Positions 7,207 through 58,610 of a stretch of 64,000 bases of DNA are shown here, piece after piece; position 1 is the first letter of the stretch; every line of letters starts with the position of its first letter. Origin of the DNA: Absidia repens (lineage: Eukaryota > Mucoromycota > Mucoromycetes > Mucorales > Cunninghamellaceae); assembly GCA_002105175.1 (NCBI GenBank), contig MCGE01000020.1, positions 62,001 through 126,000 on the forward strand. Reading direction: 5' to 3'. Position numbers and translations under genes: made by a program. The notes beneath the pieces were generated by a model. The model had not been told where the DNA came from. It saw nothing but the letters and a program-made list of their open reading frames with translations, and did no database searches.

Positions 7207-8225
7207 CCCGCCCACGTGAATATTTAATTGCCCCGATTTTTTATTTTTTTAGCTCTCTTTCCTTCCTCTTTTTTTTTCTTCCCTTAATCTTCACGATTGT
7301 GGCTCCTGTGAGGTCATGGTGGACTTAGGTTAGTGTCAGGACTAGTTTAAAAGCGTTTTCAGAACAGGGATTACAAGAGGCATGGGGAAACGATTCCATT
7401 TTGGATTCAGGATGTAGACCCACCAATAGATGACTCTTTGGAGCTTTGATTAGTTTTGGATAGTGTTAGTTTGTCTGTGGTTTGTATCTATATCTAAATA
7501 AAATATGTTTCTTTTTACTTGCTTCAATGAAAACCGTCCCATAAGTCTCTCTCATGTCTTGTGCAAAATAGATCTCTCTTTTGCTACCATTACCCTTTTT
7601 TATTAGTGCTAACCGTTGTTGTGCTTTAATAAAAGACATCTACTTACAGTATTTCTCACGTCCTTTTTACCATGTACAAGATATTAGATAACTTTTTTCC
7701 ATTTGCTCCTTTAGATTAGTGTTGTCCGCTCGACGGATCTCCCATTAGTTTCACTCAATCTACCATATAGATCCTTCCATTATATCTCTTGTATGATATG
7801 ACACCCTCTCGTCTTCAGTTTTAATATCTTCAACGAACTCCCCTCTTCATTTTTAGTGTCCCCCACTAAGCTTCAATAAAAATATGCCCCTTTTAACAAT
7901 GCATTCTCTGACCCATCGTATAAATGAACAATGTTGATATGGTAGTTGTTTTGTGAGCATCCTATCAAACACTTAGTTCCTGGTTTACCCATTATGACTA
8001 CTTTTCACCCTAACTAGGAGCTGGTTGACAGTCTTCGGTCACTTTACAATCAAACATGAGCTATATTACTGCTCGACCAATCATATATATAAAATTTAGG
8101 TCGTGCTGTGTTTGTAGATTACTTAGTATGAAACGTGTTCCTTGTCCCCCTCTACCATTCATATGAGTATCAACCTAGCCTGCGGCATCAGCGTTCCCGT
8201 CCCTAAATTGGACATACCACTATAT
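7207..8225 (+). repeat. dispersed element, copy A (full length)
   Basis: Element with the same order of blocks as four others in the window: CCCGCCCACGTG (7207-7218), a pyrimidine tract (about 7240-7285), a core at 7340-7412 including AAGCGTTTTCAG and CATGGGGAAA (7381), and AATAAAATATG at 7497. A diverged 3' tail has further AATAAA motifs at about 7628 and 7875, the phrase GAGCATCCTATCAAACACTTAGT (about 7957-7979) and CAACCTAGCCTGCGGC near 8171-8187. The core is more divergent here than in B, C and D (GAGG for GATG, CGATTC for CCCTTT). It codes for no recognisable protein. It could be an RNA gene, a micropeptide gene or a non-autonomous mobile element. Confidence 0.8.
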
Positions 8226-8908
8226 TCATCCTTCTCGCGTGTGTGTGTGTGTGTGTGTGTGTTTTTTTTTTTTCTCATTCTGCATGTCGTACAATACTAA
8301 TAATAAAAACAAGCCCAAACTAAAGTCATAGGGTAGGAATCAGAAGGGAATTTTGTGTGGAGCAAAATAGAAAAAAAAAAACGCAGCAAATTGTACAGTG
8401 AATAAATATATCATGTCAATGAAAATATAAACAGCCGTCTTATGAAATTGGGTGGATTTTAAAAACTCTACCAGAGGAATCATAGAGGAGACACTAGTTC
8501 AATCATATTTAATAAAGATAACAAAAACAAATACATGACAATCACATCATTTGAAGAAAATAAATGGACATGTAGTCGCTGAAGAATTCAAGACATGGAT
8601 TTCAAAGTACATACAATTTATTATATATTTGGTGTTTGTGTGTAGGGGTTTTGAGTAGGGGAAGGAAGAAAGTATACATACAGAGATAATGGGCCGAGAG
8701 AGGAGGGGAAACACTATACAACAGTTTAAAAAATGGAGGTGGGGTAGGGGAATGGAAAGGGAAAACATAAAAAAAAAGAGAGAGAAGGAAAGTAATATAA
8801 TAGGTGCAGTGGAAGGGGAATACATACAGAAAATAATTAAATAAAAAAACTACTATATAAGATATATATATATGTGTGTGTAAAAAAAAGGGGGGAAGAT
8901 AGGAGATA
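8226..8908. other. intergenic stretch with a (GT)n microsatellite
   Basis: A (GT)n microsatellite is at 8239-8261, followed by T12. The rest is A/T-rich and holds the probable 3' UTR of the bHLH gene on the minus strand. No gene is supported. Confidence 0.55.
8239..8261. repeat. (GT)n microsatellite
   Basis: About eleven GT units followed by a T run, at the right edge of repeat copy A. Confidence 0.95.
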
Positions 8909-10281
8909 CTAATTTGCTTGTTTGACACCATTGTATTGCTCCAGAATAAGTTCCAGTTCTTTGACGCGCTGTTGATATAAGTTGACTTCTTGTTGTAAAA
9001 GCCGGATATGGTCCACCGATTTCCGTAAGATGGCGCCCTTATTTGGTTTATTGTTGTTGCTGTTGCCATTGCCACCAGTAGGCGATGATGACGGTGAGCT
9101 ATTGCTGTTTGCATTGGTGATTTCTTCCAACATGGCCTCTGGCAATAAACAGCCTAATTCATGGATTCTGTCATTGATATTTTCGCGGCGTCTACGTTCC
9201 ACTATCAAAAAAAAAAAAAAAAAAAAATAGAGGTCAGGCAATGGTCACACAAGCAGGTTAAAAAAGAGTAAACGACAGTGGGGTAAAAACAACATAACAA
9301 CAAAGACAAAGATAATATAAAGTAAAAAAAAAAATATATACATACCAGCATTGTGAGATTCCCGTCGCCGTCTTCTTTTTTCCATCATTGCTTGTAGGCT
9401 TTTGTTTGGTACCAGAGACAGAGAGAGAAATATAAAAAAGATGAAACAATAGATGTGATTAGTTCCTGAGGATAGATAACTCTAACACTCTCTTTTTCCT
9501 TTCCATTTCATTTCACGCCGATTGCTTCTTGTCTTTTCACTTACTTGACTTGCATGGCATAATCGTCTTCTGCACTTTGAGGTAAATCGGTTATTTGCTG
9601 CTGTTGATGGGCTGGTAACGCCATGTTGAGATGAGCTTGCTGTGCAGTATTGGTGGGTGAATTCATTGGCGAACGACTGTTGAGATGAAATTCGTACCCG
9701 ATATTTGCAGGAGCCGACATAGGAAACCCAGATGAAACAGAGGATGGTGATGACGATGAAGGATAACCATGATAAAGTGAAGATTGTTGCTGTGAATAAT
9801 TCGATAGAAGCTGTTGTTGCTGTTGCTGCTGCTGTTGTTGTTGCTGATGTGTTTTGGTATTATTGCTTTCATTCATCATTTGATTGTACTGCTTGCTTCC
9901 TGCGGCAAGCATGGAGTGTCGTTGTTGTCGCTGAGGGTGATGATGAATGTCCATTGGGCCGACAAATCCTGATCCTCCACCACCACCGCCGCTAGTTGTG
10001 TTTGGAGAAGTGCCGAAGTTATCATAGATGCTAGAGTCACCGCCCATGGATGTCAAAGAATAGTCAGACGGCGACTCTTCATACATTGGTAGAGCATGAA
10101 TCAATTTCCTCTTTCCAAACGATGCCTGGTAATCGATATCGTCCATATCCTGTAGCGTAGTTGACATTGGTGAGATGAAGTTTTGTGAGAAAGTATCAGC
10201 ATAGTCGATAGGACTGTCTTCCATGGTAACGTTTCCGGTATTCCATTGGTTGTTATTACTATTGTTGTTTGTGGTGCTCAT
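8909..10281 (-). CDS. bHLH-leucine zipper transcription factor (MiT/TFE- or Rtg3-like)
   Basis: Exons complement(8909..9201, 9346..9398, 9545..10281); 360 aa. The N-terminal 245 residues are low complexity (Asn-rich start, Gly run, a run of 12 Gln, Ser-rich), as in activation regions. The basic region spans exons 2-3: [27 protein letters not shown] is covered in pieces, with His261, Glu265 and Arg269 in the H-E-R positions that predict CACGTG binding. Helix 2 ([20 protein letters not shown]) runs into a heptad-leucine zipper. [13 protein letters not shown] and NKGAIL resemble MITF/TFEB (IERRRRFNINDRI, NKGTIL); yeast Rtg3 is another candidate. Which ortholog it is cannot be settled by reading alone. 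Confidence 0.88.
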
Positions 10282-11184
10282 GTTGAATTTGAATTGCTGT
10301 TATATAAAGATCAAGTAACTGTCGAGGTTTTGTTGGTGAAATTGTAGTTCAGTATGTTGTCGAGTTAAGCAATTGAAGTGTTAAACTGATGGGATGATAT
10401 TCCATAAAAGGATAAAGTAATAATAGATAAGAGTATAAATAGCGAAAGTGAAAAAAAGAGAGAAAGAGAAAAGAAAAACTTTGCAAAGTTGAAAAAACCA
10501 ACTTATAAAAACGATTCAGGCCAAGAAAATAGAAAAAGACATATGCTGCGGCGGGGTTTCAAGTTCGCATGAGCACTGATTGGTTCGATGACACACCACA
10601 ATGATGGTTCAGGATGTGTGAAAAAAGTAGAAGGTAGTATAAAATTAAAATTATCAATCTAAAAAAGGACACGATAACGTATGATAGATCAAATGAGACC
10701 TTCAATAAAGCAGGCACAGTCAGTTTTCCTTTTTCCGTCGTACCACTATATGATGTGTACATGTTTGAACTGAAAGGGGGGTAATGATAAGGGGTGGCCT
10801 GTGCTCCATCATGATTTACAAATGACTACTATAGGCCAACATATATCACACTGTCCACTATTTATTTTTAATAGTTACTACCACTCTTTACAAAATAATG
10901 ATGATTATCCCGAGGTTGACGTTTTTTGCCGTACATACATAGCAACAGTTTTGATAAAAATAAGTCTGCTGAGCCAGGTTTTTTTTTTCAGATGATGCTA
11001 TCCCATGAGTTTTTGCTACCATTAAAAAACTCACCAACCGCATGAACAAAGCGTATTCAGGCACACAAACTTGATGAATTTCTTGCGAAGAAAAGTTCAA
11101 CGATTGGCCATATCTTACCCCAAATCATGTGTCACTGCACCAAAAAAAAGGAAGAAATGAATTGACATATAAATTCGTATTAGC

Positions 11185-11226
<42 letters not shown>

Positions 11227-12297
11227 GCTCAACTTGCATAATAAACCCAGCTCCACCATGTCCATATTCTTATCCTCGAAATCATCATCATCATCATCAT
11301 CATATCATTCTTTTCTATTTCCATATAGAAGTGCCACATTAGTAATTCTGTCATATATACAATAAAACATCATCTTCCTTTTTATAATAATCGAAATATG
11401 ATGACCGATTTAAGGTTTATGCTACCAGATTGAATCGCCGCACTGATCACTCTACGATACATTCTCTTTACAGAAATGCATTCCTATATAATACAAGGAA
11501 GTAGGCACGTATCATGTCATGTCAGTATAACCAATGAAAATAATAATAATAAATATGCGTTTGCATTCGAATATTTCAATGATAGTCCCATTATAAACAT
11601 ATTGCTAATCAATAGGTGACGAAGAAAAATAAATTACTATAATAGTTCACGTTTTACAACTTGTCAGTTTCATCAACCAAGTTTTTTGCTTTATCATATT
11701 GCATGAGATAACCGCAGAAATATAGTAACCTTTTTCTTCTTTATTCATATCGCTTTTTGCTCGTCGTCATTATGATCACTTGCTTAAGCCACACGAGTAA
11801 TACCGAAAAAAAAAGGATGAGACAAAAAGGTACCAAAACGCATCGTGAGGATATTTCATGCAAAGATAAAACAGCATATGAAATCATATCGGTTTCACCT
11901 TTTCACCAATTGTTCGTTTTAGATACTATTGACTATATATATTTAAATTGTATTATAGATTCACTTATATCGTACCATGACTATCAAAGTTTAACTTGAG
12001 TGACGATACATACTGTAAGCCACGATCCTATAAACACACACACACATATATATATATATATAAACGGTGTTACAAATCGATATAGAAACCATGTCACGGT
12101 GCCTTTTTTTTTTCAAGAATGATGAATGGTTGGTCGTACAAATGATGATAAAAAAATAATTTTTTATTCGATGAAAAAAAAGACTGAAATAATCTAACGT
12201 GTGGAATATAATGAATACTAAATACTAAGGAAAGAAGGTCAAGTCTAGTGAATAAGTTGTTGTCCTGTAAAATCCATGAGGTTAAGAGCTGGCCAAA
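10282..12297. other. gene-free intergenic stretch with T37 tract
   Basis: About 2 kb with no supported gene. The first several hundred bases are presumably the bHLH promoter. A run of 37 T lies at 11189-11225, a (TCA)n stretch at about 11282-11303, and (CA)n/(TA)n at about 12033-12061. The end holds the probable 3' UTR of the kinase gene. Confidence 0.5.
11189..11225. repeat. T37 homopolymer
   Basis: An uninterrupted run of about 37 T. Length is prone to sequencing and assembly error. Confidence 0.9.
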
Positions 12298-14386
<2,089 letters not shown>

Positions 14387-14910
14387 AGCAGTGTGAGTTC
14401 AAGTGACGTGGAGGAGAAAGATATGTAGGATGAGTTGTTCAGGAAGGAAGGGAAGAGGGTAGTGTAGGAAGAGAAATGAGGAAGTGTGGGGTTGCGGGGT
14501 GAACAAATCAAAGACAAAATGGAGAGAAAGAGAAAGAGAGGGGAAGTACTTATGGAGAGTGAGTAATACAAAGACGTCGAGCAACAAATCCAAGTTTAAG
14601 AAGAACAGTGGAAAATTCATAAATAGAAAAAGGGGATGCAAGAATATATTCCCAACAGATAGAAATAATAAAAAGGAAAAGAAAAATAAAGAAAAAGGGA
14701 ATCGAAAAAAAAAAAAAAAAATAGAAAAAAAGCCTTTGCCCGTCTGCCGTATTTCAAATGCCGACAGTGGTAGTGGAAAATTTTATTTTTTTTGGACGTC
14801 ATTTGGCGGCTCAGAAAATTGTTTGAGGTCGAGATTTCCCATTTTTCCTTCTTTCTTTTTTAGATTACTTCTACTACTCTTTTTTTTATATACATATATT
14901 TTTTTAAACA
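14387..14910. promoter_or_regulatory. divergent promoter, S6K-like kinase / PP2A scaffold
   Basis: 524 bp between two divergent starts. Purine-rich (GAGAAAG) on the kinase side, T-rich (CTTCTTTCTTTTTTAG, 14859-14874) just before the PP2A subunit. No conserved operator is recognised. Confidence 0.5.
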
Positions 14911-18421: not shown

Positions 18422-18472
<51 letters not shown>

Positions 18473-19390: not shown

Positions 19391-21487
<2,097 letters not shown>

Positions 21488-22440
21488 ATAGTTAGTATAG
21501 TTTTAGTAATTAGTGGTAATGTTTTCTCCCTCAGTCACATACTCCCCCTCCCTTTTCCTTTATCTTTGATTTTTTCTATTGTGATTGTCTTTAGCACCAT
21601 TTTACCTTCATTTGATTCCTTTTTAATAAAGCATTTTGATCACATTGTGTATATCCATTTTACAAACACTTCTATTTGATTTGATTTGGTCTTCTTTTTG
21701 GTTTTTGCGGATTAATGGGTTTTGTATTATGGTATAATAACATATAGTATAATTGTGGGGAGAGTGGTGATCTGTTTCTGGACCTCAGATGTTAGAGGGG
21801 GTCATGGACATGAATCTCTTTTATGTCGACTAAAAAGACAATAAGATATGTGGTAAATTGTCGAAGGCATTAATTGAAGTCACATAAAATGATTTTATTG
21901 TAGGGTCAACATCATGTAAGATAACTAAAAGGATTAGCAATTTTATATCGGGAACCAACCTGCTCTACAGTGGATGGGCTAAACTATTTTACAATGAATG
22001 ATGGAACTATTCTACCGCGGAGCGAGGGACTACTGTATGTACGGCGTGCGCCAAACTATTGTATAGTGTGTGAAAAAACTAACCCATAGTAAAGAGGAAG
22101 TGCAAAGTAATTGTATCAGTTGCATCATGCCAAGAGAGAAGAACCATGTGCTACCAGTATTGAATGATGGAGTTATTTTAATCAATAAAGGGACTGTCTC
22201 TTTTATGCCGCTATGGAATAATTTTGATTGTTGTAAGAAAAATAAAATAAAACGGTGAACTATCGTGTTGAAAAAAAGAAAGGAAGAACCATGCTGCTCT
22301 TGATAGCGACAGCTGTAAAAAGAAGAGAAGAGAACCACCATGTTGACGATGTTGTATGTTGTGTGGTTAAGGTTTCCTGTTCGTACCCACCAGAGAAAGT
22401 GGCAAGCCAACCTCCAAAAAAAATAACCCCCCTTTCAAAT
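21488..22440. other. gene-free intergenic stretch upstream of repeat copy B
   Basis: The MAP-kinase 3' UTR is probably at the start (AATAAA near 21625). Phrases such as GGGCTAAACTATTTTACAATGA and GCCAAACTATTGTATAGTG recur between 21970 and 22075 and loosely in the stretch before copy A (about 7000). No gene is supported. Confidence 0.5.
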
Positions 22441-23310
22441 CCCGCCCACGTGAAACTTTAAATTACTCCCATTTTTTTCCTCTCGCTCTTTCTTTTCATT
22501 TTCTTTTTTTCCATTCCTTTCTTCTTCACTATTGTAACACCTTCGACGTTGTGGTTACATTAGATGTGCGTTAGGACTAGTTTAGAAGCGTTTTCAGATC
22601 AGGGATTACAACATGCATGGGAAACCCTTTCATTTTGGATATAGGATCTGGACATCATTAGCTGACTTTTTGGAGCCCCCATCAGCTTACTTTAGTGTTA
22701 GCTTTATCCATAGCTTATATTTACGTCTGAATAAAAGATACCTTTGTTTTACTTGCTTTAATGAAGAATGCCTTATTAATCTTCTTCATGTTTTGAACAA
22801 TTGATCTCTTTTTCAAGGATGCCCTATTAGATTAGTATACGTTTCAATAAAAGGTTTCGCTTTTGTCTTTCTCATGCATTGTGCTGTACGTAAAGAATTT
22901 TAACTTTGTTTTGCAATGGACCCTTTAGATTATTATTGATAATTTTTAGTCCTAAATAAGAATACATCCCGTCCCTACCATCACCCTCAAACTACCTCCA
23001 TTAGATCCCTCGTTAGAGTGAAACCTGTGCCCTTAGTTTAGTATATACCAAACTATGCTTCAATAAAATTGTCCATATTGTTAACTATCTTCTGACTTGA
23101 CAAAATTTCATAAAAAACCAGAAGTCATTATTGTGGTTATCTTGTGCATATCCTATCAAACACCTGCTTTCTAACTTTACCCACTACAATTTCGGAGGTC
23201 CTGGTTCGCGATTACGTTATATGAAATGTGACATTATGCTCATGCGACCATTCAAATTAATCAACCTAGGCTCTGCAGCCAGAGTATTGCAATAATCTCT
23301 GCTAGAGTGG
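22441..23310 (+). repeat. dispersed element, copy B (full length)
   Basis: Blocks in order: CCCGCCCACGTG (22441-22452, identical to copy A) with a TTTAAAT beside it, a pyrimidine tract (about 22478-22530), core 22574-22646 with AAGCGTTTTCAG and CATGGGAAACCCTTTCATT, and AATAAAAG at 22729. Tail AATAAA motifs are at about 22845 and 23057, ATATCCTATCAAACACCT at about 23146, and CAACCTAGGCTCTGCAGCC at about 23263. CACGTG to CATGGG is 168 bp, exactly as in copy A. One G is missing from the GGGG of copies A, D and E. Confidence 0.85.
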
Positions 23311-23962
23311 CCATATTATATATTTATATCCAGGTCTTGTTTTCATTGCGTATTGGATAATAAAAGAAAAAGAAAAATGCATACAACCCCAAATAGAAGC
23401 TAGTTGGGTCACAAGGGAACTAACCACAAAACTTAGAAATGGCAGAGTCACCTAATACCATCCTATCAAAACCATACTTCAGCAAACACTTGTGTATGTT
23501 GTCTACTACTTCTAGACTAAATACAGCTGTTTTTATTATACCAGTCCGGCTTTTTCTAATTGGAAAAGAAAAAAAGATGTTCGATAAATCTCTTGTTCTT
23601 AACCTCTATCTAACCAACAACGCCTTTACAAAGAAGACCCATTTAATATAAAATATAGTTTGTAGAGAGTTGCATCTTTTGTATGATCCACTTCAAGCAA
23701 TATCATCCACCCACGGACTCTGAGCACATATAGAAAACTCCGTTCAAAAAAAAAAAAAAAAAAAAAAAAAAAGACGTTTGCAATCATAATAGATAGTGTA
23801 AAAATGAGATTTTTTATTGACAAAATATAATGATATAATGATGAAGATATATACAAACAAAAACAAAATAATAATTGATATCACACTAACTAAAAGAATC
23901 CCAACACTAAAGAAAAAGAAGAGAGAGCCTTGCATGATGATCCTAGTTTTTTTTTTTTTTTT
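23311..23962. other. intergenic stretch after copy B, including A27 tract
   Basis: A/T-rich, with A27 at about 23746-23772 and T19 at 23947-23964 at the 3' end of the VPS9 gene. No gene is supported. Confidence 0.5.
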
Positions 23963-30122: not shown

Positions 30123-30153
<31 letters not shown>

Positions 30154-31634: not shown

Positions 31635-31667
<33 letters not shown>

Positions 31668-33490: not shown

Positions 33491-34590
33491 TTTATTAATA
33501 TTATTATTATTATTTGGTAAAAAGAAAATTTTTTAGAAGGATAACTTGGTATAAATACCTCAAGATTAATGTGAGGAAACAGAGGGTATTGTTTGATGTG
33601 TTATCATACCGAATTCGGGCCTTCTTTATCATATGCTTTTGTATCGTTTTCTTCTTAAAAAAGGCCTTTTTTACCTGATCCATCACGTTGCAGCTTATCG
33701 TAAATATCGACATTTCAATTTGATAGAAATAATTGTTTCGCTTTTGGATTTGTGGGGTATTATGGAACATAGAACTTCGAATCTATGAATAATATCTATG
33801 AATAATACCTAAAGACTTGTATTTGAGAAGATTTTGACTGATTAACCACTTTAATAGCTAACCGAAATTTTCAAAATGAGGTTTTCAGAAGTCCAGTACA
33901 GATTCTTCTTTTACGTTATTCTTTGGGGTATAATGTATAATTGGAATGCACATCTTCTTGTTAAAGAACATCATGATTATCAAAACTGTTTTAAAGCCCG
34001 CCTTCTTTGCATGAATTTTCCCCCAAAAAAAATTCATATATGTCATGATGATTCAGTTTTCAATTTAATATAGAGTATTTATTTACTATCGTATACCAAG
34101 TACCTTAATATTGACTCATATGATATGGCTTTAGCAACTTAAACTTTATTTGAAGTCAATGTAATATCAAAGGTATGATATTGAATGTGTATAATGGCTT
34201 GATGCTCGGGACTGGGATCAGCGTTAAGTTATACGATGAATCAGGAACATGTTTGAGACCCTATGTATTGCTAAAAAAGATAAGGTTAAACGAACCTTAT
34301 GCAAAACGGGTCATTGTCATTTTCTGTATTTTCGAATTTTGAGGAAATGTTTATTTTGGTCCAATTTATTTATTTAGACGTGAAAATGACAGTTGCAGTT
34401 ACGGGTTCGATTTAATTTGTGACTAGTTCACTGTCAACGGGTGCCGATATTTTGTTTATACCTTTCAAATTTTCACAGCCCTCCCCTCTGACAATGTAGA
34501 GATACTTCTTGGCTTTGGACATGGCACCTTTTTTCTGGGTGGGGACTTGATGGTACCAACACGTGAAGGGGAAAAAATAGCATTTAAAAA
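33491..34590. other. gene-free intergenic stretch before copy C
   Basis: About 1.1 kb, A/T-rich, probably including the acyltransferase promoter. A CACGTG lies at 34560-34565, just upstream of copy C. No coding region or tRNA fold is supported. Confidence 0.5.
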
Positions 34591-35640
34591 CCCGCTCAGG
34601 TGATGGTTTTTTTTTTATTTACACCCTCTTTTTTTCGCTCTCTCTTTTTTTTCCTCTTCTTTTTTTTCTCCCCATTCGACTTCCATGAGGTTATGTTGGA
34701 CTTAGATTAGTGTCAAGCCTAGTTTAGAAGCGTTTTCAGCTCAGGGGTTACAAGATGCATGGAGAAACCCTTTCATTTTGGATCTAGGATTTTGGGATGA
34801 CCATTAGTTGGCTTTTTGGAGCCTTCATTGGTTTAGGCTAGTACTAGTTTGTCCATGGTTTTTAATTATTTTTGAATAAAATATATCTCTTTTACTTATC
34901 TCAATGAAACATTTCCCATAAATCTCCCTCATGTCTTGTGCAATAGATCACTTTTTACCATTGTCTGTTAGATGTATTGTTATAATTCAATATAGGATAC
35001 CTTCTGGTCTTTCTCCTTCCTGTGTAGTATATTAGGCCCGTTTTCCTTTAGTTTAGTGTCGACCATTATTCAAATTTCACATAAATATCCTTCAATCTTC
35101 CTCCAATAGATCTTTTCATCAAATCCTTTGTTGCAATAAACCCTTCGTCTTTAGTTTTAGTATCAATTAGTGTCTACCAATATACTTCAATAAAATGGTT
35201 CCTTTTTACTGGTCAACTTCTGACACACAATGTAGTTAGTAATACCGCTGGTATAGCTGTTTTGTGGGTGTCATCCCAAGTGCTTTCACACTAAGTGCAT
35301 TCTTTTCTCGTTTACCAGTTATGATCACTTCTTTCTTGTTAGAAAGTCCCAGGAACTAGTTGGTAATGTTAGATTACTTACTATCGAAGATAGCCGTATT
35401 CATTATTGGCCAATCTTGCAAATGATATCTTGGACGTATATAGCTGACGCTATAGAGCATTTTACATTTCTTTCTAGCATATTTATGGCCAATTCCAGAG
35501 ACCTAGCGACCATTTTTGACTGTTCTAGGTCACTTAATATGAAACGCAGCGCTATCCCCGCTCTACCATTTATATTTATCAACTGAGGCTGTACCGCCAG
35601 TTTAACGTTCGCTGAACTGAAAGTATTCTATACACCCGCC
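34591..35640 (+). repeat. dispersed element, copy C (full length)
   Basis: Promoter-side block CCCGCTCAGGTG (34591-34602), where the CACGTG has decayed to CAGGTG. A pyrimidine tract (about 34620-34675) follows, then ATGAGGTTATGTTGGACTTA, core 34716-34790 with AAGCGTTTTCAG and CATGGAGAAACCCTTTCATT, GGCTTTTTGGAGCC, and AATAAAATAT at 34873. Tail: CTCATGTCTTGTGCAATAG (about 34929), AATAAA near 35143 and 35187, TTACCAGTTATGATCACTTC (about 35311), CACTTAATATGAAACG and CAACTGAGGCTGTACCGCC (about 35579). It is the longest copy and closest to D in the core. Confidence 0.85.
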
Positions 35641-36114
35641 TTGTTATTTATTTATGGTACTTGTTTTTTTTATAGTTATTTTAAATGCGATAAATGAAGC
35701 CCAAGCTGAAGCTAGATAACTAAGTGGCCAATTTTTATGGTGTAAGCTTGTGGGGATTGCTGCCTAATTTCATGAAAAATCACACTTCAACTACTTCTTG
35801 AGGTACCCTATACAGTACGCAGAGTATATCAATTTTTTGGAATCGAATATAAAACATTGCAACAATAAAGGCTTATTTTACATTCTTGATAAACTGCACC
35901 ATGTCTCTATTTTTTGGTGGGGTCTTTGGAGTTACCGCCAATTGATTTTTATTGACCTTTGGAGATACTTCTATTATTTTTATTAATATTGGGAGGCGGC
36001 ATAATTTAAACTACCGCTTTTTTTTTTTTTTTTTTTTTTGGCTCTCTTGTTTTTCTGTGTGTTTTTTTATTTGTATTTTTTTCTTCGGCAACTTCCGTTT
36101 TATAAAATATTTGA
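35641..36114. promoter_or_regulatory. intergenic: rhomboid gene promoter side
   Basis: 474 bp, A/T-rich with T23 at about 36018-36039. The stretch just before 36115 is T-rich like other promoters here. No gene is supported. Confidence 0.5.
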
Positions 36115-43360: not shown

Positions 43361-44039
43361 CTTGTAGTATATAGTTTAGTGTTGTATTACCTTTTTCTCC
43401 TTTTTTTTTTTTTTTTTTTTTTGTTACAAACATATGCATTAAATAAAATACCATTCTCAAGGATTATTATACGAAATGTATATATACTAGTGATAGAATC
43501 TTCTTTTTCTGATATAAAAGAACAAAATCCATGTGTTTGATTTTATATACATATATGTTTTTACTATTTATTTGTTAATGATTGATTGGCTAGTATTTGA
43601 TTAGTATTTAAAGGGGGAAGGCTGTACATGGACTGGTGACAGATAAAATGAATGCGCATATGTTGGGTTTTTATGTAGTTGTTTTTTCATTATACTTATA
43701 CACAATAAAAATAATGAGCTGGATATGTACAGTACAGTATAGTGTGTCTAGTCTAGTGGTGTCTATGTTGTAGGAAAGGTCTTGATTGATAGATATGTGT
43801 GATAGAAGAGGGAAAAAAGTCACCTTAATTTCAAATGACATAGTACTACCTATCAATCGCTCAGTCTCTTGGAAAAAGGGAGAGACGGATAACGCATAGA
43901 TGATGGAACAACCTTGGGTCAATGATGGACAAGGTGGAGGACACATTGAAAAAAAAAAAAAAAAAAAAAACCCTCCCCTGTTTTATTATGACAGCGTGCG
44001 AACGAAAAAGCAGGCGAAAATGCTCTACAGTATGTACTG
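43361..44039. other. gene-free stretch between cofactor E and copy D
   Basis: 679 bp. The cofactor E poly(A) signal is near 43441-43446. There are T20 and A21 runs (about 43403-43422 and 43950-43970). A 16-bp near-perfect inverted repeat, TACAGTATGTACTGTA, lies at about 44026-44041. No gene is supported. Confidence 0.5.
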
Positions 44040-44868
44040 TAAAGTGCAGCAGCAGCTATCTTCGCGACGCAACCTAGGCTCAGTAATATGACTAATCTAT
44101 AAATTACAATTGATACTACATGATGTAGGACTGTCAATCAGTCACTTGGTGCTTGAGCTTTATCGGGCGAGAAAGGAAGAAGTGATTATCATGGGGTGTG
44201 AACTAGAACGTAGGTATTTGATAGAACACTCATAAAATGACTGCAATAAAGGCTTTACTCATTATATAATGGGTCAGAGAATGGATAATCAAAAAGCAAT
44301 AGTTTATTTGTAAGAATATGATACATACTGAACTAAGAGCGGGAGGAGTTCATTGTAAAAAGGGATCTATTGGTGGTAACATGGAAGAGGCCAGCTGGTG
44401 AGGGGGAATCTGATGAATGGTCAACACTAATCTAAAGGAACATTTGTAGAAAAAGAAAGAAGAAGAAAAGAAATCTAATATATTCATTGAAGCATGGCAA
44501 TGGCAAATGTAAGAAGACATCTATTACACAGTACAGTACATAACATTAAAAAAACTAACGAGGTTTGTAAAAAGAAACATATTTTATTCACATATAGATA
44601 CACACTATGAACAAACTAGTATTAAACTAAGCTAATGAAGGCCTCCAAAAAGCCAACTAAGGACGGTTCCAAAATCTTAGATCCAAAATGAAAGGGTTTC
44701 CCCATGCATCTTGTAATCCCTGAGCCGAAAACGCTTCTAAACTAGTCCTGACACTGATCTACGTCCAGCGTAACCTCATTGAAGTGGAACGTTGAAGAGA
44801 AAAAAAAGAAAAGAGAGTGCGAAAAAATTAAAAATCAGGAGCAAATAAAAACTCCACGTGTGCGGGTT
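44040..44868 (-). repeat. dispersed element, copy D (full length, minus strand)
   Basis: Read on the minus strand: CCCGCACACGTG (44865 to 44854), a pyrimidine tract (about 44817-44790), ATGAGGTTACGCTGGACGTA, core 44747 to 44677 with AAGCGTTTTCGG and CATGGGGAAACCCTTTCATT, GGCTTTTTGGAGGCC, and AATAAAATATG from 44588. The tail keeps GTGTTCTATCAAATACCT (about 44229 to 44212) and GAGCCTAGGTTGCGTCGC (about 44077 to 44060). CATGGG to AATAAA is 116 bp, as in copies A and C. Its inverted orientation rules out simple tandem spread. Confidence 0.85.
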
Positions 44869-45736
44869 TTTAAATCTCTCCATTGTCTCTGTGGACACAA
44901 AAAGGTGAACGGCCCCTCCTTTTTTTTTTTTTTTTTTTTTTTACAACCATCAGCACCATTCAACATCGGCTTCACCATTGTCCTCTTCTATTTTTTTTTT
45001 ATGCGAACCCATCTCCACAGATTAGCATAAGTAGCATGCTGGTTCTCTCTCTCTCTTTTTTTTTCGCTGTAACTGCCACTATCCAGTACCGGTGATAGGT
45101 TGGGTTTCTCCTTTTTTTCGACTACAACTTCCACAAATCAACATCGGGGTGAGGGTGGGGGGTGTGGGAAGTACCTAGGCATGTGTATTATGGATAGATT
45201 GGGGGTGTTGAAAACAGATACGTCGTGAGACGGCGGCCTTGTCCGCAATAAACAAACATCAGCAACATTCTTGATTTCCTAGTTATATTTTTGACAACAC
45301 ACTCTATTCATTTAGCCTAGTAGTACTATAGCAGTATTGTTTTTTTGTTTTTAAATAAAGAAAACTGTATTTTACGCATGCGTAACGCTATTATTTATTA
45401 TTTATTAATTTAGTTGATGTTATTATTTTTTTTTTTTTGTGGATGGACAGGTGGATCAGGTCGATTTGGTTATAAGATAAGGAAATGGATCTTGATAGGT
45501 TGGAATATTGTGGATTGAATCAAAGGAGGGATGCATTATCTTAATAAATTGGATGTGATCTATTGGGCGGGGAGGAAAAAGGACATCCAGCCGGATGATT
45601 GATAGGGTGATGACGATACAAATAAAGATAAATCGATCCTTTTAGATAATGACAAAGTGCTACATGAATAGATAAAGTTTTATTTATAGCATTAAAAAAA
45701 AGGGGGTACGATAAAGCGAGGAGTTGGGGTATATAA
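44869..45736. other. gene-free stretch right of copy D
   Basis: 868 bp with T21 at about 44921-44941 and other short T runs, and the 3' UTR of the minus-strand gene at the end. No coding region is supported. Confidence 0.5.
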
Positions 45737-48592: not shown

Positions 48593-48625
48593 CTATACAA
48601 AAAAGGAAATTAGAACGTTAGAGAA

Positions 48626-48933: not shown

Positions 48934-49374
48934 GTTGCGAGAATTGATAGAAGATGGGGGGAAAAGAAAAAGGTTAGAAAGCTCTCCGCGTTTTTTTATT
49001 ATTATTTTTTGTTGGCTGACCTGGTTCGCTGGGTTTAAAGTCCCGGATTTCGCTATTTTTGAAAACAACAATTCGAGCAAACTGCACTAAGCGTCTAGCA
49101 GTTTAATACCTAATTACATAAATAGTTAAATATATATCAAACATATATTCTTATGTAATTGCTTAACACGCGGTTATTTGTTGGTCTCAATCAAAAAGTG
49201 ACCATTATGCTCCCACCTTGTTCTGGGTAGCGGTTTTTTAAATCCCGCACGGCATTTTTTATTTTATTTTTGGGACTATGAGCCCCTTTGCACTTTCTTA
49301 TTTCCTCACCAAATTTTTCTTTCTACCCAATCCTGATTTAGACTAGATCCCTCAACTTTCCTTCTCATTCATAA
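48934..49374. promoter_or_regulatory. divergent promoter, Dabb ORF / ubiquitin E2
   Basis: 441 bp without a supported exon. It contains AAATCCCGCACGG (49230-49242), reminiscent of the CCCGC start of the repeat family but with no CACGTG. A C/T-rich tract leads to the E2 start. Confidence 0.45.
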
Positions 49375-50834: not shown

Positions 50835-51402
50835 TTGAAAAGCACGGTCGACAACCTATATATCCCCCTTCCCCTCCCTCCCGCCCCCTGTATTTAGTCT
50901 CAATATTTTATTTTATTTAATTCAACATTAGTATTACATAGTCTAATTTTAGATCGTTTTTTTAATATTGCTTTTCAGTACTATGATGCTATGATGAAAT
51001 AAACGTATCCTGCATATAGGATTTTTTTTTTACATATGGTTTTTTTTTTGTTTTTTTTTTTTTTGACATGATGAAATGAAAAGGGGGTGTTGGTTTTGCT
51101 ATGCTGGATATATGATGCAGGTTAAAAACGGTGTTGGTCATGCTGGTGATGGGGTAGATAATACGTGCACCACATGTGCCGCACTTTTTATTTTATTTTA
51201 CATTCTGTGTTTATATACCAAAATCAAAACAGTAAAGAGTGGATAGTGTTGACTTTTCTTTTTAGTGACGATATAAGCTCAGGAAAAATGGCTATATACC
51301 TCCATCATCGCGACTTTTTTTTTCATTCCTTTCATCTCTTTTCTTTTTATCTGTCTTCCCTTCCTTCCTTTTTTTTTTTTTTCTTCTAGCAAAAACAACG
51401 AA
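50835..51402. other. intergenic: E2 3' UTR and upstream region of the small ORF
   Basis: 568 bp without a larger gene. It has AATAAA near 50998 and T runs near 51020-51062. A pyrimidine tract ends TTCTTCTAG at about 51381-51389, which resembles a 3' splice site and could mark a 5' UTR intron of the next ORF. Confidence 0.5.
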
Positions 51403-51606
51403 ATGATTCTCTCTCATCCATATAAAAACATGGCTACAGCAATCCATACCTTGATTTTTACTGTCATCCTCTTGTTGGTCATAGCCCCTCTACCAAATGC
51501 TCTTGTTTTTGATGCCGATTTAATAAGTAACCCCTTGATTCATGATGTACGGGCTATTCATCCTATCAGACGAAGACTCTCCAATCCGCTTTCCTTTAAG
51601 AAGTAA
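51403..51606 (+). CDS. small secreted-peptide candidate, 67 aa
   Basis: A single-exon ORF. From Met1 or the better-placed Met10 (AACATGGCT) it reads MATAIHTLIFTVILLLVIAP, a hydrophobic segment with LPNALVF after it that looks like a signal peptide, and then about 35 residues: DADLISNPLIHDVRAIHPI, a basic RRRLSN and a final SFKK. There are no Cys residues, so it is not a defensin-like peptide. It follows a long C/T tract of the kind seen before real genes here and has an AATAAA about 215 bp downstream (near 51820). No homolog is recognised. It could encode a secreted or membrane-anchored small protein, or be a chance ORF. Confidence 0.4.
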   Translation: MILSHPYKNMATAIHTLIFTVILLLVIAPLPNALVFDADLISNPLIHDVRAIHPIRRRLSNPLSFKK

Positions 51607-51911
51607 AAAATGAAGGCACTACATATACAACGCTAGCTATTCTTCCAACCCCACAAATATCAGAATCTTATTTACATAGTCAAATCATCATCATCTTCTT
51701 CTTCATACACGTATATATTTTGTCATCCCACGTACCCACATCATGATCGACACCCATTCACATAGTTAGTCAATATACTCTCACACATCATCATTAAATA
51801 GCACATTCAAATTGTAAATAAAAAACTTAAACCGAATATATATATAAAACAGAGATGGTTGGGGTAAAAGGAATATTTTATTTCAAAAGAATGGGGAATT
51901 TTGTGTTGTCA
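51607..51911. other. convergent intergenic region, small ORF / HECT ligase
   Basis: 305 bp, A/T-rich, holding the probable 3' UTRs of both flanking genes (AATAAA near 51820). Nothing else is seen. Confidence 0.5.
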
Positions 51912-53717
51912 CTAACTAAGCTCAAATCCGGTATTTGAGTGAATTGCTAATAGGAATAATAAGAAACATAGGAAATAAAATTAGTAGGCGATATCATGAT
52001 TGATTTGAGCTAGGATATTTGTACTGACCATAATGCAATTTTTCACGGAGTAGTGATTTCTTGGTATACGCTACAATGATGTAACGAAAAAAGGGGAGGG
52101 GGTCAGTATCTCTGTGAATGTCTGTAATTTCATGTTTATTATCTTCCTTACCAGGCAACTTGAGTAGATTGAAACTAAATAAAAAGAGAAAAAAAGGCCA
52201 AAATGCATTAGTTTGAAATATTTCCCGCTATTTTTTTTTTTTTTTTTTTGTGATCTTACCATGTCGAACTACTTGGCAATCGACCTAATTTGTCACTGTT
52301 TGTGTTCAATTTTAACATGGCCCGCACCAAACCCATTCCTTCAATCGATTGTTCATTCGGTGATATCATACGGATAGTAAAAGGAGGTTCCAAATAACTA
52401 AAACCGCCTAAAGGGGGCTAAGATTCCCCCCGAAAAGTATTGGAATATTGCATGAATGATAAATAATAAAAAATAATATTTCAGTCCCCGACTCTTTTAT
52501 TTACTTTTCACGATTACCTTGGGACAGCTGGTGACAAATTTCAGGAACGCCCGTTTTTCATCCGAAGAAAATTCTTGCACAATTTGCCATAGTAACTTGA
52601 TGATTGGATGTTGATCAAAGTAGCCATTTTGGTATTGTGTGTGTCGTCGAAGGTCTGGAATATCTACATAAAGAAGAAACATAAAGTTGTGAATCGACTT
52701 GTCCAAGGTTTGTAACTTTTTTTTTTTTTTTTGGTTACCAAAGTCCACATCTTCGCCCGATATCACTCTATCGTCAAAAAAATAATCATAAAAAAAGGTT
52801 CTCTAGCCTTTCCCCTCACTCCCTCAAAAAAAGAACCCCTCCCAGCAAATATGAGTTTGTATACCTTTGCAACTCGGGAGGTGAGAATACCTTGATCCAG
52901 TCTGCAGATATCATGGAGCGAAAGCCTTGAATGAATGCTTTCGTTTGATCCCGAGCACGTTGATTCAATTTGTAGTCTGCCATCAAATAAACATATTCCA
53001 GCTTGTTTTCATTCGTCACACCAATATTCTGTCCATGCTACAATAGAATAAAACAAAAGTTTTCGTTGGTTATCGTGATGATGAGAGAGGCTGTGCCACG
53101 ATAACTTACATATTTCAATTCTGTCGTTGTCACAGAATCTAATGTCCTTTCGTCCGTTGCAAAACTCAAGCCCAGATCTTCCACATTCCCTTTTCCAAAT
53201 AAATAAATCATATTAATAATAAAATAGTAAGAGTCAATCATATAGAGAAAATAACAATGGTATACTATATCTGTTTTTATATATACCTTCATAATGCTTT
53301 AAAAAGATCAAGTTTCGCCATACATCTTCATCCAGTTCTTGTAATGCTTCCAAAAACACATTTCTTCCCAAAATTTTGGCCAACAGGAACACTGCAAATT
53401 GACAGTCGAGTAGTATTCCTTCGTAGATGGCCTTTCCAATCATCTATATATAATGCATGATTCAATCAATCAATCATAAAATGTTTAGTACGACATAATG
53501 AGATCAAATTCCAATTCCTAATCATCACTGCGCTTTATACCTTGCCAACAAATTCAAAAAGGTGGATATAATTTGAGCCCATCAGAGGAGAAGTGGTTGC
53601 AGGATAAAACAAATTTGTCTTGGAGGTGCAGGAGAACAATCCATACTTTGGTTCGAATACTTCAGATATCAATAGTGTCACAAAATCTAAACACACACAC
53701 ACATACGCAGCCCGCCA

Positions 53718-53750
<33 letters not shown>

Positions 53751-56377
53751 CGATGAGAATCCTTTCTATTCAGTTCATATCATACAGATGTTTACCTTTG
53801 AATGGCCCTCCTTGATCAATACCAGCTTCTTCCACTCCAAGCTCGTTGACAAAAGTGACCCGTATCCGACCTTTCAGGACTTCATTGGAAAGTCGAGAGA
53901 GTGCCCTGAATCCATCCTCCAGAACATGTTGGCGGCGAATAAAGATAGACTGTGTTGCTGACGTGTACATATTGGAGGCTCTATCGAGGTGAATCCCGTC
54001 CCGGAATATGTGTAGCCTGGTGGTGAAAGGAATGGTGTGAGGCATCAGTTGCAAAATACGCATGGGAACCACATCGCCTTGTCGTACTTGAGCCAGAAAT
54101 TGGGTTGCTTCAGGAGGATTGTTGTCTTTAGAGAAAGGGCTACTAAACACAAGTCGTAAGAGCGATTGTTTGCTCATCATAGGATCAGATACTAGCAACC
54201 AATGATCAGGCGGACAAAAAGGATGGCGATTGTCTAGGTCGTAGAGTTGTAATAAAAGTCGCTTTGCTGCTTGGAACGAGTGCAATGTATTGGAATGATG
54301 GGCGCCGTTTGACTGCAAGTGGTTGGTATTGGTAGTAGTTGATTGTTGTACAAGCGCAAAGTAAAAGGTGTTCAAGAATTGGCCAAGATCCAGTAAATCC
54401 GAGAGTGCAAATGGTGTTTCTTTTTGAAAGATATCGATGTCGTCCAGTGTACTAAAATAATATAGTATAATAAAGATTAAAAATCCTGTCATCATTTGGT
54501 TTCGTAGAGCACATAACTACTCCCCTCTTTTTTTTTTTTTTTTTTTTTTTTGTCAAAACTTACAGGAAAACCAGAGAACAAGCTTCACAAAACACCTTTA
54601 GTACATCAATCAAGGGTTCCTTTTCAATATCTGAAGCATTTTTCCTTGCCGCATCAAGATAGATTGTCATGTTACCCGAAGGTCCAAAATGATTCATCAC
54701 GAGCCACAGTTGGGACATCAAACCAGGAGTAAAGGCGATCCGAGCAAGTATGATTTTTCTTTGTTGAGTAAAAAGAGCGCCAAGTTGAGAGTACATTGAA
54801 AACATCAGTTGTGTGTTCATCGAAAATTCGGCCATATCCTTGCTGTTGATGACGGTTGGTACACTGTTGGTGTTGCCGCTGTTGTCAGTTCCTACCCCTG
54901 CTGCGCCTGATGCATTCGCCCCAGTGTCGATCTTCTTTTTCCCAGATAAAAACCGTCGGGTATTCAGTGTCATTTTGTTGATTTTCAATGAAGGGGACAA
55001 AGAGGAAGGTGCGGCAAATTTCAAAATAGGTTCCAGTAGCTGATCCATAAAACATCTTGACCAAAGCGTGGCAATTTGATCCTGAATCACTAATTCATAG
55101 ACGGCGGCGTCGATTTGGTCACCCCAGGGACAACAAGACCATTTGAAGATGGGATGATAGTGAGTGTAAGGAGATCGCTGGCGGTCCGAGTAAAAAGGTG
55201 TTGCCAATGAAATGAGGTGCATGACAATATCCATCAAATGATACGCTACTTCCCGTTCTTGATGATCCATGAATTTTTCCTGGTAAAGGTCCACAACGTT
55301 CGCCATCAAAAATAAGTATCCGTTGCCGCCCACCACCGCCACTGACTTGCCATCAGCATCATCATCATTGTTGTTGGTATTGTTTTTTGTCACCAAGGGA
55401 TGGATGGCTCCAAGGGTCCATTTCCGTAAGCGATCTAGCACCATCGTGGAGAGAAATTGTGATAAAAGAGGCACCGTCAATAAATGGTTCCAGATGTATG
55501 TCGCTGCCTTGGTCAGTTCCGTCGTATCACCAGCGTTTTCCAATGGAAATAAAAGAATCCTCGTCACTGTGGTGAGCCATAGCTTGATCCCATTCATCAT
55601 CTTTGTGTTTTCCTTGTCCAATGGTTTGCCGCGCTGTTTGCTTCGATTTTCCAGTTTGACGAGTCGTTCCACACGCTGCACACAAGCATCACGAAGCAAG
55701 CCACCGTTTGGATCGTCTCCACCACCGTCGAAAAAACTATCGAGTGTTGATTGTAGAATACAAAGAGCGGTTGTCGTAATGTCGTTCTTTTCCAAGGCAT
55801 AGTTGTGGTTCAATGGATGTCGTACAGGTTTGTAAGAGCTGGGATTCAGATAAAGCAATAGTGTGGTGAGTTCAGGTCCAGTCAAGTAGAGTTGGCGGTC
55901 TAAGAGATGGTTCGAGTTGTCGTTTGTACATATTCGAAGTAGGCATTGCTTCATAACAAGTCCAATAAAATCCATGGTCTTTCGACGATAGCGCTTGTCC
56001 ATGAGTAGGGTATAAAAAGGCACTTGTGTGGAAGAAGATTGATCAAGGGAACATTTTGCACCAATTCGTTTACAGAGGAAGGTCAAACGAACTGGTCCAG
56101 GGGCTTGGCGTCGGCTAAAGAGGCAATATTGTCCAACCATTCGATAGACATCCATCAAAATCGCTGAGCTAGTGTCGTTGTCCAAATACTGGCTATCCCA
56201 CCAGGTCCATAACTGTTCATGCTGAGGTTGTTGGCGCCACCAGCGTTGAATGAGCAAAGCAGCCTGTGTCTGTTTTTCAGCGGTCTGTTTTTCAAGCCGC
56301 TCCCGTTCCCGTTTCTGCCGTTCTGTACGAGTTTTTTCAACAAATGACTTTTTTCCTTCATCAATCGGTGTAAACAT
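51912..56377 (-). CDS. HUL5: HECT-type ubiquitin E3 ligase (Hul5/UBE3C-like)
   Basis: Exons complement(51912..51946, 52029..52070, 52152..52174, 52260..52417, 52518..52663, 52739..52767, 52865..53037, 53110..53189, 53287..53443, 53541..53686, 53796..54451, 54564..56377); 1152 aa, near UBE3C length (1083). The N-terminus is a charged helix and an IQ-like motif (QAALLIQRWWRQQ), as in UBE3B/UBE3C. The HECT domain starts about residue 770: VTFVNELGVEEAGIDQGGPFKDF, LFEFVGKMIGKAIYEGILLD, DLGLSFATDE, AFIQGFRSMI, FLKFVTSCPKPPLGGFSY and LPSSSTCFNLLKLPAY. Catalytic Cys1120 has its codon split by an intron at 52259. The end, LREKLHYAIHSNTGFELS, closes the domain exactly. In the family this ligase acts with the proteasome to extend ubiquitin chains. 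Confidence 0.94.
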
Positions 56378-56769
56378 GAGTGAAGAAATTGGAAAAAAAG
56401 AAGAGAGCGAGCGAGACTCAATCCAGGTTTATCCACGAGGGGTAATTTCAAAGCCAGCATTCCCTGTGTGCGGGTATGCTGAAGTTCAGCACTGTGCAAA
56501 CTGTTTGAAACACTATCGCAAAGTTGTTGTTTTTTTCTGACTATATAAAATATTATAGCTTTATTCTATCGAGTGTATTGTGAGACTTTATTTGATTTCT
56601 AAGCGATAGGGGCACTAGTGTGGCGAAAATAGATTACAAATGGCATGATTTGGGTAGCCTTTTTTTCAGATTACAAATCCAGACTTTTTGTATTTAAACC
56701 CCCCTCTCCCTTTTTTTCTTCATTTCTTTTTCATTTCCTTTTAATTTTATATCATACTCTTATATTATT
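56378..56769. promoter_or_regulatory. divergent promoter, HECT ligase / old yellow enzyme
   Basis: 392 bp between two divergent starts. A C/T-rich tract (about 56697-56745) precedes the old yellow enzyme. No gene or operator is recognised. Confidence 0.5.
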
Positions 56770-58051
56770 ATGACTGTCTCAAATAACTCAGCAAAAGCAC
56801 TCTTTCAACCAATCCAAGTGGGCTCAAAGTTACTCCAAAACCGCATAGTACTGGCACCGCTTACACGGACTCGTGCTGATGTCAGTGGGGTTCCTAATCA
56901 ACTTGTCGCGGACTACTACAGTCAGCGTGCTACTCCTGGTACACTGCTTATTGCCGAGGCTACTGCGATATCTTCCAAAGTTGGTAAGCCCAAGGGCGCC
57001 CCTGGTATATACAATCAAGACCAAGTAAATGGGTGGAAACGTGTGGTTGATGAGGTCCATTCAAAGCAAGCTGCGATTTATCTACAACTTTGGCATACTG
57101 GTCGTACCTTTAGTCCTCGCGATGACTCTACTCCTGTTGTATCAGCGTCTGATATCCCTATCCCAGGCCTCGATCCTACTGGAAAACCCTACCCAACTCC
57201 CAAGGCTCTCACTATTCCAGAAATCAAAGCTACTGTGGTGGATTTTGCCAATGCTGCCAGAAATGCCATCGAAGCAGGATTTGACGGTAATGAAATCAAA
57301 AATGGGAGGCAGTTTTTGCTCATACTGACAAAAAAAAATTGTATCTTGTGTGTGTATAGGCGTCGAAATTCATGGTGCTAATGGCTACTTGATTGATCAA
57401 TTCAACAATACAAGCAGCAATCAACGATCAGATATTTACGGTGGGACAGTTGAAAACCGAGCACGATTTGCCTTGGAAGTAGTGGACGCTGTGGTGGAGG
57501 CCATTGGTGCCGAACGTACCGGTATTCGATTCTCGCCTTACTATGGATTTCAAGGCATGCATGATGTGGATCCCTTGACTACGTGGTCTTATTTGACTCA
57601 ATCATTACAGTCTCGTCACCCCAACTTGTCATTCCTCCACTTCATTGAACCCCGTACCAATATTCGAACAGATGACGAAGTGGTTGCTGATGTCACTGAA
57701 TCTCTTGAATCCTTCAGATCTATTTGGAAAGGTCCTTTTATCTCAGGTAAATTATATGATACTCTCTCGTTTAAAAAGATAAATATATATACTCATCCAT
57801 TGACTTTCTTTTATTTTATTTCAGCGGGAGGCTACTCCTTTGACCCAAAAATTGCCTTTGATGTTGCTGAACAATCTCCAAACAACCTAGTAGCATTCGG
57901 TAGATCGTACATAAGCAATCCAGACATTGTTGATAGACTACGAAATGGCTATCCCCTACATCCTTATGACCGCAAGACATTCTACACACCTGGTGCCGTG
58001 GGATATACTGATTATCCTGTTTATGCGGAAGACAATCAATCCTCTTTATAG
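56770..58051 (+). CDS. old yellow enzyme family FMN oxidoreductase (NADPH dehydrogenase)
   Basis: Exons 56770..57286, 57360..57746, 57825..58051; 376 aa, the standard length for a single TIM-barrel ene-reductase. ALFQPIQVGSKLLQNRIVLAPLTRTRAD is the FMN-binding start, covered in part, then YLQLWHTGR and GFDGVEIHGANGYLIDQF. His177 and Asn180 of HGANGY are the substrate-binding pair and Tyr182 follows. RSDIYGGTVENRARFALEVV and the C-terminal FGRSYISNPDIVDRLRNG (phosphate-binding arginine) complete the fold. It reduces activated C=C bonds with NADPH; the physiological substrate cannot be told from sequence. The classical fungal OYE group fits best. Confidence 0.93.
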
Positions 58052-58257
58052 ATTATAGTATTAATTTTACAATTCATGTGGTTTTAGATTTATTGTATTA
58101 TATTTATATTTTATTTTTATGAATTAAACCCTCTAATGCTTTACTGGAGTTTTGGGGAAACTTCGATTTACAGAGCTACTGGGTATCAGCGGGGAGGGGT
58201 GGTTTTTTTGAACTGTCGGTTTGATGGGCCTGGATGAAGGGTTGACTCATTCACACT
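58052..58257. other. old yellow enzyme 3' UTR side
   Basis: 206 bp between the stop and repeat copy E, including an ATGAATTAAACC stretch near 58118. No gene is seen. Confidence 0.45.
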
Positions 58258-58610
58258 CCGCCCACGTGCTGGTATGTTTGTATCCTCCTTATCCTCTCTC
58301 TTTATTTTGTTTTTTTTCTTTTTTTTTTCGCCACTAAAGTTTCAATCAAGTGGTGGTAAACTTGGATTAGTATTAGAACGTGAATCAAGGGTATTTTGTA
58401 AATGCAATGAAAACATCATGGGGAAATCCTTTCATTTTGGATTCGTGATTTGGCGCTGCCAATAGAATAGCCTATATCTTAAAATAGTATCAATAGCTCA
58501 GTTCAGTGCTAATTTGCCATAGTATATACAATATCCATATCTGAATAAAATATGCCTTGTATTTTTTACCATGTATACCTCTTATGTGTTTAAATTGTCT
58601 CGTTGAATTG
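58258..58610 (+). repeat. dispersed element, copy E (divergent, short)
   Basis: CCGCCCACGTG (58258-58268), a pyrimidine tract (about 58286-58329), CTTGGATTAGTATTAGAACG (58361-58380, the counterpart of CTTAGATTAGTGTCA in copy C), the box CATGGGGAAATCCTTTCATTTTGG from 58417, and ATCTGAATAAAATATG near 58539-58554. The AAGCGTTTTCAG block is lost (GTGAATCAAGGGTATTTTG instead) and no long 3' tail is found. That CACGTG, the CATGGGG box and AATAAA remain in order while the rest has drifted is the best evidence that these three blocks are the constrained parts. Confidence 0.7.

Follow-up and report, generated by a model that had tools for sequence, protein, structure and literature searches.

A dispersed family of Absidia repens best filed with the DINE-1/HINE-like non-autonomous Helitrons

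Introduction

Several families of rolling-circle transposons with short noncoding forms have been described. For example, the DINE-1/HINE elements of Drosophila and mites are non-autonomous Helentrons with a defined core and an insertion preference for TT (PMC4067079). Another example is FoHeli, a Helitron2 of Fusarium oxysporum with hairpins, non-canonical ends and short derivatives (PMC5148889). In Mucor griseocyanus, Helitrons have been reported as the main category of transposable elements (PMC7011435), and passages of PMC11258239 mention a Helitron/Maverick transposon of Phycomyces, with nothing closer. The family analysed here, from Absidia repens, is not described in the titles or abstract openings of the literature searched; subscription papers lie mostly beyond that scope, so the family may have been published.

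The Absidia family resembles DINE-1/HINE in its very high copy number, its noncoding nature, its defined core and the tandem repeats of some copies, as well as in a stem-loop near an end and a Rep-helicase partner with common ends; however, its young subfamily B1 inserts directly 3' of (A/G)ATAAA and not in TT, and the host is a fungus (PMC4067079). With FoHeli it has in common Rep-helicase elements in the range of about 5-11 kb, non-canonical hairpin ends, short non-autonomous forms and a T/A-rich insertion site. On the other hand, FoHeli1/2 start with TCAG, end in ATTTT and insert after TNAT, whereas the Absidia ends differ, and the asymmetric terminal inverted repeat of FoHeli was not found in the Absidia family by a search whose systematic scope excludes short repeats (PMC5148889). 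Rep and PIF1 helicase domains and a hairpin near one end are also features of Helitron1, but the Absidia family has neither 5'-TC nor 3'-CTRR and its target is not A|T (features as given in PMC5148889); its ends are CGCTC... and ...TTAA, and a canonical Helitron1 was rejected in either reading direction.

The reading preferred here, to which a probability of about 0.83 is given, is that the family consists of non-autonomous and decayed copies of a rolling-circle, Helitron2-like Helitron lineage, best filed as a DINE-1/HINE-like non-autonomous Helitron family. The dispersed unit would thus be explained together with autonomous relatives in the same genome, as a DINE-1-like load in a fungus. Two of its features are testable: the link between AATAAA and the insertion sites of young copies, and the better preservation of the core in old ones. 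A repeat annotator would mask the family, and a transposon specialist would probably find the result useful rather than startling.

Copies in the window

The window, that is, the whole stretch of 64,000 nucleotides that was analysed, had been credited by an initial annotation with five copies of a dispersed unit, and an nhmmer core profile recovered all five at their places and on their strands, with no sixth copy at E 1e-3. The block order and the drifting flanks claimed for them were likewise recovered with core and full-length profiles. Across the family, 118 copies sort into two subfamilies, A (89) and B (27), with 2 unclear. Copy 5 is a member of B and is devoid of GACTAGTTTAGAAGCGTTTTCAG, which corrects the uniform list of blocks given initially, and copy 1 carries CATGGGGAAACGATTCC where ...ACCCTTTC had been expected. 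The unit limits held in part: the real units are larger than first described, several copies being extended by a left arm of about 0.6 kb in the opposite orientation, and copy 5 starts at about 58,128, versus 58,258 in the initial annotation. The features are the following (window positions; the core matches are those of the nhmmer core profile, on the strand of the feature).

6590..7190, minus strand: copy 1, left arm of type LA1, divergent from the core, with an AATAAA-like module (left-arm profile, of which this arm is a seed, so that its own score is circular; outer limit approximate)
7189..8302, plus strand: copy 1, core and right arm, subfamily A (core profile; full-length profile, with copy 1 as seed); core match 7197-7511
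22426..23350, plus strand: copy 2, core and right arm, subfamily A (core and full-length profiles); core match 22431-22743
23345..23597, minus strand: copy 2, degraded Helitron terminal region pointing at the core (BLASTN of B1; profile)
34571..35708, plus strand: copy 3, core and right arm, subfamily A, with a left arm of the other type, LA2 (profiles); core match 34581-34889
43708..44883, minus strand: copy 4, core and right arm, subfamily A (core and full-length profiles); core match 44876-44574
58097..58345, plus strand: copy 5, Helitron terminal region directly upstream of the core, terminus at about 58128 (B1-only profile; wider limits from a profile including copy 5)
58240..58642, plus strand: copy 5, core and short right arm, subfamily B (core profile); core match 58249-58557

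Abundance and anatomy of the family

What had been noticed as five copies amounts to thousands when the core is searched in its own genome. The 47.4-Mb genome contains 4,751 matches to the core 23-mer ATGGGGAAACCCTTTCATTTTGG at up to three mismatches, balanced by strand (2,352 and 2,399), against 0 for the reversed control; locally, this pattern recovers 20 of the 22 hits of the profile and makes no false hit in 264 kb. The exact 21-mer CTAGTTTAGAAGCGTTTTCAG is found 157 times, versus 0 for its reversed control. An estimate of about 3,800 copies genome-wide comes from the core profile, which found 16 copies in a sample of 20 10-kb pieces spaced along seven of the larger contigs. This abundance is far beyond chance. 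Viral contigs gave 0 matches, and contigs of other genomes gave two single 21-mer matches, both in prokaryote MAGs, where about 0.5 would be expected by our own estimate. In protein comparisons, the best matches with a name came from Rhizopus and Absidia, at 66-71%. Cores are spread over 10-kb bins more evenly than expected by chance (21 cores in 26 bins; dispersion index 0.40, P 0.003), also in the sample pieces alone (0.47, P 0.03).

The start of most copies falls no more than about 10 nt from a common boundary near CCCGCCCACGTG. The pyrimidine tract follows, then the core, then modules of about 100 nt that bear AATAAA, and the profile matches stop anywhere between about 400 and 1,140 positions. 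In many copies a left arm lies on the opposite strand, across CACGTG from the core. Among 28 copies whose upstream sequence extends for 700 nt or more, 10 have an inverted match to the AATAAA module of the core model there, with E up to 1 (three of the ten weaker than 0.01), against 0 of 60 control stretches; the left-arm profile matches 19 of the 28, ten of these being its own seeds and several others weak. A second left-arm type, LA2, is carried by copy 3 and its relatives. The 3' part of the left arm is homologous to the right arm, the LA1 model matching 98 of 116 right arms at E 0.05 and 41 at 1e-5. This common 3' module looked like a terminal inverted repeat; nevertheless, a long-TIR element was rejected, as the B copies that were read have no such left arm.

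The young subfamily B1

Six B copies are closely related (support 0.999), and the three close B copies with flanks (L121, L123 and L125) have a common unit of about 1 kb, here called B1, which carries the core between constant ends. A genome search with B1 returned 30 places including L121, with consistent limits, two of which (C35 and C51) may be one duplicated stretch. The flanks of L121 are found joined without B1 at C78, C67, C2 and C9 (two of these empty sites were read), and B1 in L121 interrupts a repeat that is whole elsewhere. The host sequence around it (L121:33-478 and 1565-1810) is repetitive too, with dispersed copies of about 90-93% identity at many places.

The insertion point of B1 is immediately 3' of (A/G)ATAAA, in most cases AATAAA. 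Among twelve left ends, nine of them picked because the match reached, or was expected near, the end, the left flank closes with ATAAA in all twelve and with AATAAA in 11, followed by CGCTCTGGCGCTCC or a near variant; the GATAAA at L121 is host sequence, as the empty site shows. At the right ends the sequence is ...TTTTTAATATATTAA or a close variant, the continuation varies, and TAAA-like letters follow in part of 11 right junctions, where target duplication is inconsistent. A hairpin lies near both ends of the L125 copy (-10.2 kcal/mol for the left 40 nt and -11.3 kcal/mol for the right 80 nt, with RNA parameters and no shuffle control), and a BLASTN self comparison of L121 gave no inverted repeats at E 0.001, repeats of 12-16 nt being beyond its systematic scope. 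With up to two mismatches, the left-end pattern has 412 copies genome-wide and the right-end pattern 59, the controls giving 0 and 1, respectively. A B1 copy at L128/L129 (C11:241913-243070) apparently lies inside the AATAAA module of another family member, as judged by eye from the flanks.

Coding Helitron parents

The ends of B1 are common to units of about 6.8 kb that encode Helitron Rep and PIF1 helicase domains. On C1, the positions of left ends (among the first 100 listed) and right ends mark units of about 6.78 kb:

C1:788071-794847: unit 1, tandem, both end patterns, Rep and PIF1
C1:794843-801612: unit 2, tandem, both end patterns, Rep and PIF1
C1, about 801608-808387: unit 3, tandem, left end, no right end among those listed, Rep and PIF1
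C1:2212598-2219380: unit 4, the parent discussed below, both end patterns, Rep and PIF1

Rep (Helitron_like_N, PF14214) and PIF1 (PF05970) occur together in seven loci, which are these four units and one each on C27, C67 and C51; on each of the latter three both fall in an open frame of identical length (1,111 aa on C27, 1,271 aa on C67 and 1,188 aa on C51). In the C1 units, the matches to both domains are on the strand opposite to the left-end orientation. Units 1 to 3 (C1:788071-808387) stand head-to-tail, and the first two have an AATAAA in common at their junction, as expected if the end of one element is the target of the next.

Within the first 1.1 kb of unit 4 lie the core, a terminal hairpin and a tandem array of four repeats of about 118 nt that carry the palindrome GCCCCTTGGGGC; this piece is 90% identical to B1 over 593 aligned positions (B1 81-665), and the last 1.05 kb match the right end of B1. 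The core lies 0.5-0.9 kb from the end of the unit (end piece L146 559-887, E 1.3e-32; block ATGGGGAAACCC at L146:745), and thus between the terminal hairpin with its palindromic tandem repeats and the Rep/helicase stretch, in this one parent, which was read at its ends. In the short B1 derivatives the gene is gone while the core and the two ends are retained, and we infer from these alignments that B1 arose from this Helitron by internal deletion. The initial annotation had named a full-length coding parent transposon explaining the pieces as something that would refute its proposal, and unit 4 is such a parent. Its third candidate, a non-autonomous mobile element, is supported by the ends in common with Rep-helicase Helitrons, by the empty sites and by the core inside the coding parent.

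The proposed mechanism is that Rep would nick the ends and replicate the short forms in trans, by a rolling-circle process. In active lineages the core would be kept because of cis-acting signals, presumably the promoter-like CACGTG and the pyrimidine tract and possibly a site of Rep recognition, and the inserted copies would then decay.

Helitron ends beside older copies

An end profile built from B1 only matches next to copy 5 (58125-58257, E 7.7e-6), L124 and L010, with 0 matches in the reversed control. At copy 2, BLASTN of B1 detects a Helitron end adjoining the core (window 23404-23490, E 1e-6), which reaches 2.7e-23 with a profile that includes, circularly, the copy 2 sequence. Weaker ends appear beside L003 and L016 in the last round, whose profile already contained hits of earlier rounds, and near L122 there is a faint one (2.4e-4, with a profile partly built from the sequences it finds); none was recognised with the end profiles and BLASTN beside copies 1, 3 and 4. 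The end faces the core from its far side in A and from its near side in B, and the core is therefore inverted relative to the Helitron end between the two subfamilies. A scan for Helitron-type hairpins near the copies gave 7 matches in 303 kb, only that at L016 being convincing, against 0 in the reversed control. At L016:9135-9196, the hairpin pairing of this old Helitron-like end has been kept through two-sided changes (GCTCC/GGAGC to GCTTC/GAAGC).

These results bear on an unlikely alternative that still carries some weight, in which the A/B core is an independent older dispersed family, either a mobile element or a noncoding gene, and one Helitron lineage captured a B-type copy and carries it as B1. 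The A family could indeed be an older dispersed unit captured by a Helitron: the 4,751 core matches compare with 412 left ends (the latter counted with a stricter pattern), the same core is adjoined by different left arms, LA1 and LA2, and among the A cores with at least 1.4 kb downstream a Helitron end was found in 4 of 28, strong only in L010, leaving 24 of 28 with no recognisable one. However, the old ends of A copies would be hard to recognise in any case, a Helitron end also lies by the core in copy 5 and L124, which are B and not B1, and in L010, which is A, and the core is held by the coding parent and not by short forms alone.

Conservation of the core

The tree of subfamily A is star-like, with a terminal branch length of 14.06 and an internal one of 1.36. 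In 57 A copies, mean substitutions are 0.066 in the 70-nt core versus 0.143 in the next 106 columns (Wilcoxon 1.8e-10), and 47 copies are free of indels in the core versus 11 in the adjacent stretch. For these rate comparisons, copies retrieved by exact core match were excluded (they were kept in the tree), and many of the remaining copies had been chosen for likeness to copies 1, 3 or 5. The window and the spaced sample together contribute 20 A copies. Their divergence is 0.06-0.09 in the core, rising to 0.15-0.19 over the following 100 columns, and 15 of them are indel-free in the core versus 1 in its neighbour. The closest scored genome matches of copy 1 have 82% identity over 320-370 nt (40 of 3,334 candidates scored). 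Given the star-like tree and these matches of copy 1, the better-kept core of A is an oddity. Simple neutral decay after one burst does not predict it, which speaks against the preferred reading.

Selection on each inserted copy should also show in young copies, which is the basis for comparing those of B1 type. Among four B1-type sequences, 30 of 552 core comparisons differ (0.054), against 32/657 (0.049) in the terminal region, 35/615 (0.057) in the next stretch and 77/858 (0.090) in the tail; among six young copies, 37/1,035 differ in the core (0.036) and 29/445 (0.065), 76/1,455 (0.052) and 83/705 (0.118) in its neighbours, all these pairwise comparisons being mutually dependent. The contrast between core and flank is thus clear in old A copies and weak in young ones, and the A pattern is therefore read as constraint along active Helitron lineages. 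The initial claim of selection on short parts rather than recent transposition stands as far as old A cores are kept better than their flanks, and fails in that one subfamily has transposed recently, with little contrast in its young copies.

A further alternative, which is very improbable, is that of a multi-copy noncoding RNA or DNA regulatory element whose copies are each selected for a host function, perhaps as a boundary of convergent genes. The slower core of A, in substitutions and indels and over a star-like tree, would agree with it, as would the somewhat lower core value of the six young copies; on the contrary, the core of the four B1-type sequences is close to the terminal region and the next stretch and lower than the tail only, and the mobility and the coding parent speak for a transposon. 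No base-pair covariation was found either. RNAalifold gave an empty structure for 118 copies on one strand, and the linked sites of this alignment reflect the A/B split and nearly vanish within A, where one site pair exceeds the mean null maximum of 20 shuffles (24.3 vs 23.7), with 65% standard pairs. Rfam gave 0 matches in the window at gathering scores and, below them, three chance-like matches in copy 3. The structured RNA proposed initially has accordingly been discarded.

Genomic location

Coding stretches were delimited by hexamer composition, with a model that had learned from long frames of this DNA, and are not gene calls. None of 21 cores overlaps them; the upstream neighbour is on the strand of the core in 16 of 21 cases and the downstream neighbour on the opposite one in 15 of 19. 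Eleven of 19 cores lie between convergent genes, versus 943 of 4,000 random noncoding placements (unweighted by piece length). A core is present in 10 of 11 convergent gaps that measure 1,300 bp or more and in 0 of 10 under 1,000 bp; at 1,500 bp or more, the share of occupied gaps is 7 of 12 for tandem and 1 of 6 for divergent neighbours. This location fits insertion near gene 3' ends and loss elsewhere. A preference for AATAAA-like sites, together with loss of promoter-near insertions, may have left the copies in 3' and convergent intergenic space.

A boundary function would be favoured by the occupation of the long convergent gaps and by the under-dispersed counts per 10 kb; however, long tandem gaps also hold copies, and the gap length follows simply from insertion. 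It is also quite improbable, if less so than a host function independent of transposition, that a Helitron aiming at AATAAA polyadenylation-signal-like motifs put thousands of divergent-promoter units in gene 3' ends, where old copies were kept by per-copy constraint on the core of about 70 nt and now bound convergent genes. Finally, the initially proposed micropeptide gene family, suggested by a frame that stays open for about 40 codons from position 160 of the A consensus onwards, is already contradicted and can be given virtually no credence, since the best frame is open and in length in 21/89 A copies and 0/27 B copies, with no clear codon-position pattern.

Other transposon classes

A MITE was rejected, on B1 only, as terminal inverted repeats with a fixed target duplication were not found in the self comparison of L121 and at the junctions read. 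A solo LTR or LINE origin was also rejected, the reverse transcriptase RVT_1 having 0 matches in the four C1 units among the 150 matches listed (150 of 213 candidates scored). Genome-wide, those RVT_1 matches number at least 150, many in long open frames, and the genome is thus rich in seemingly intact retrotransposons.
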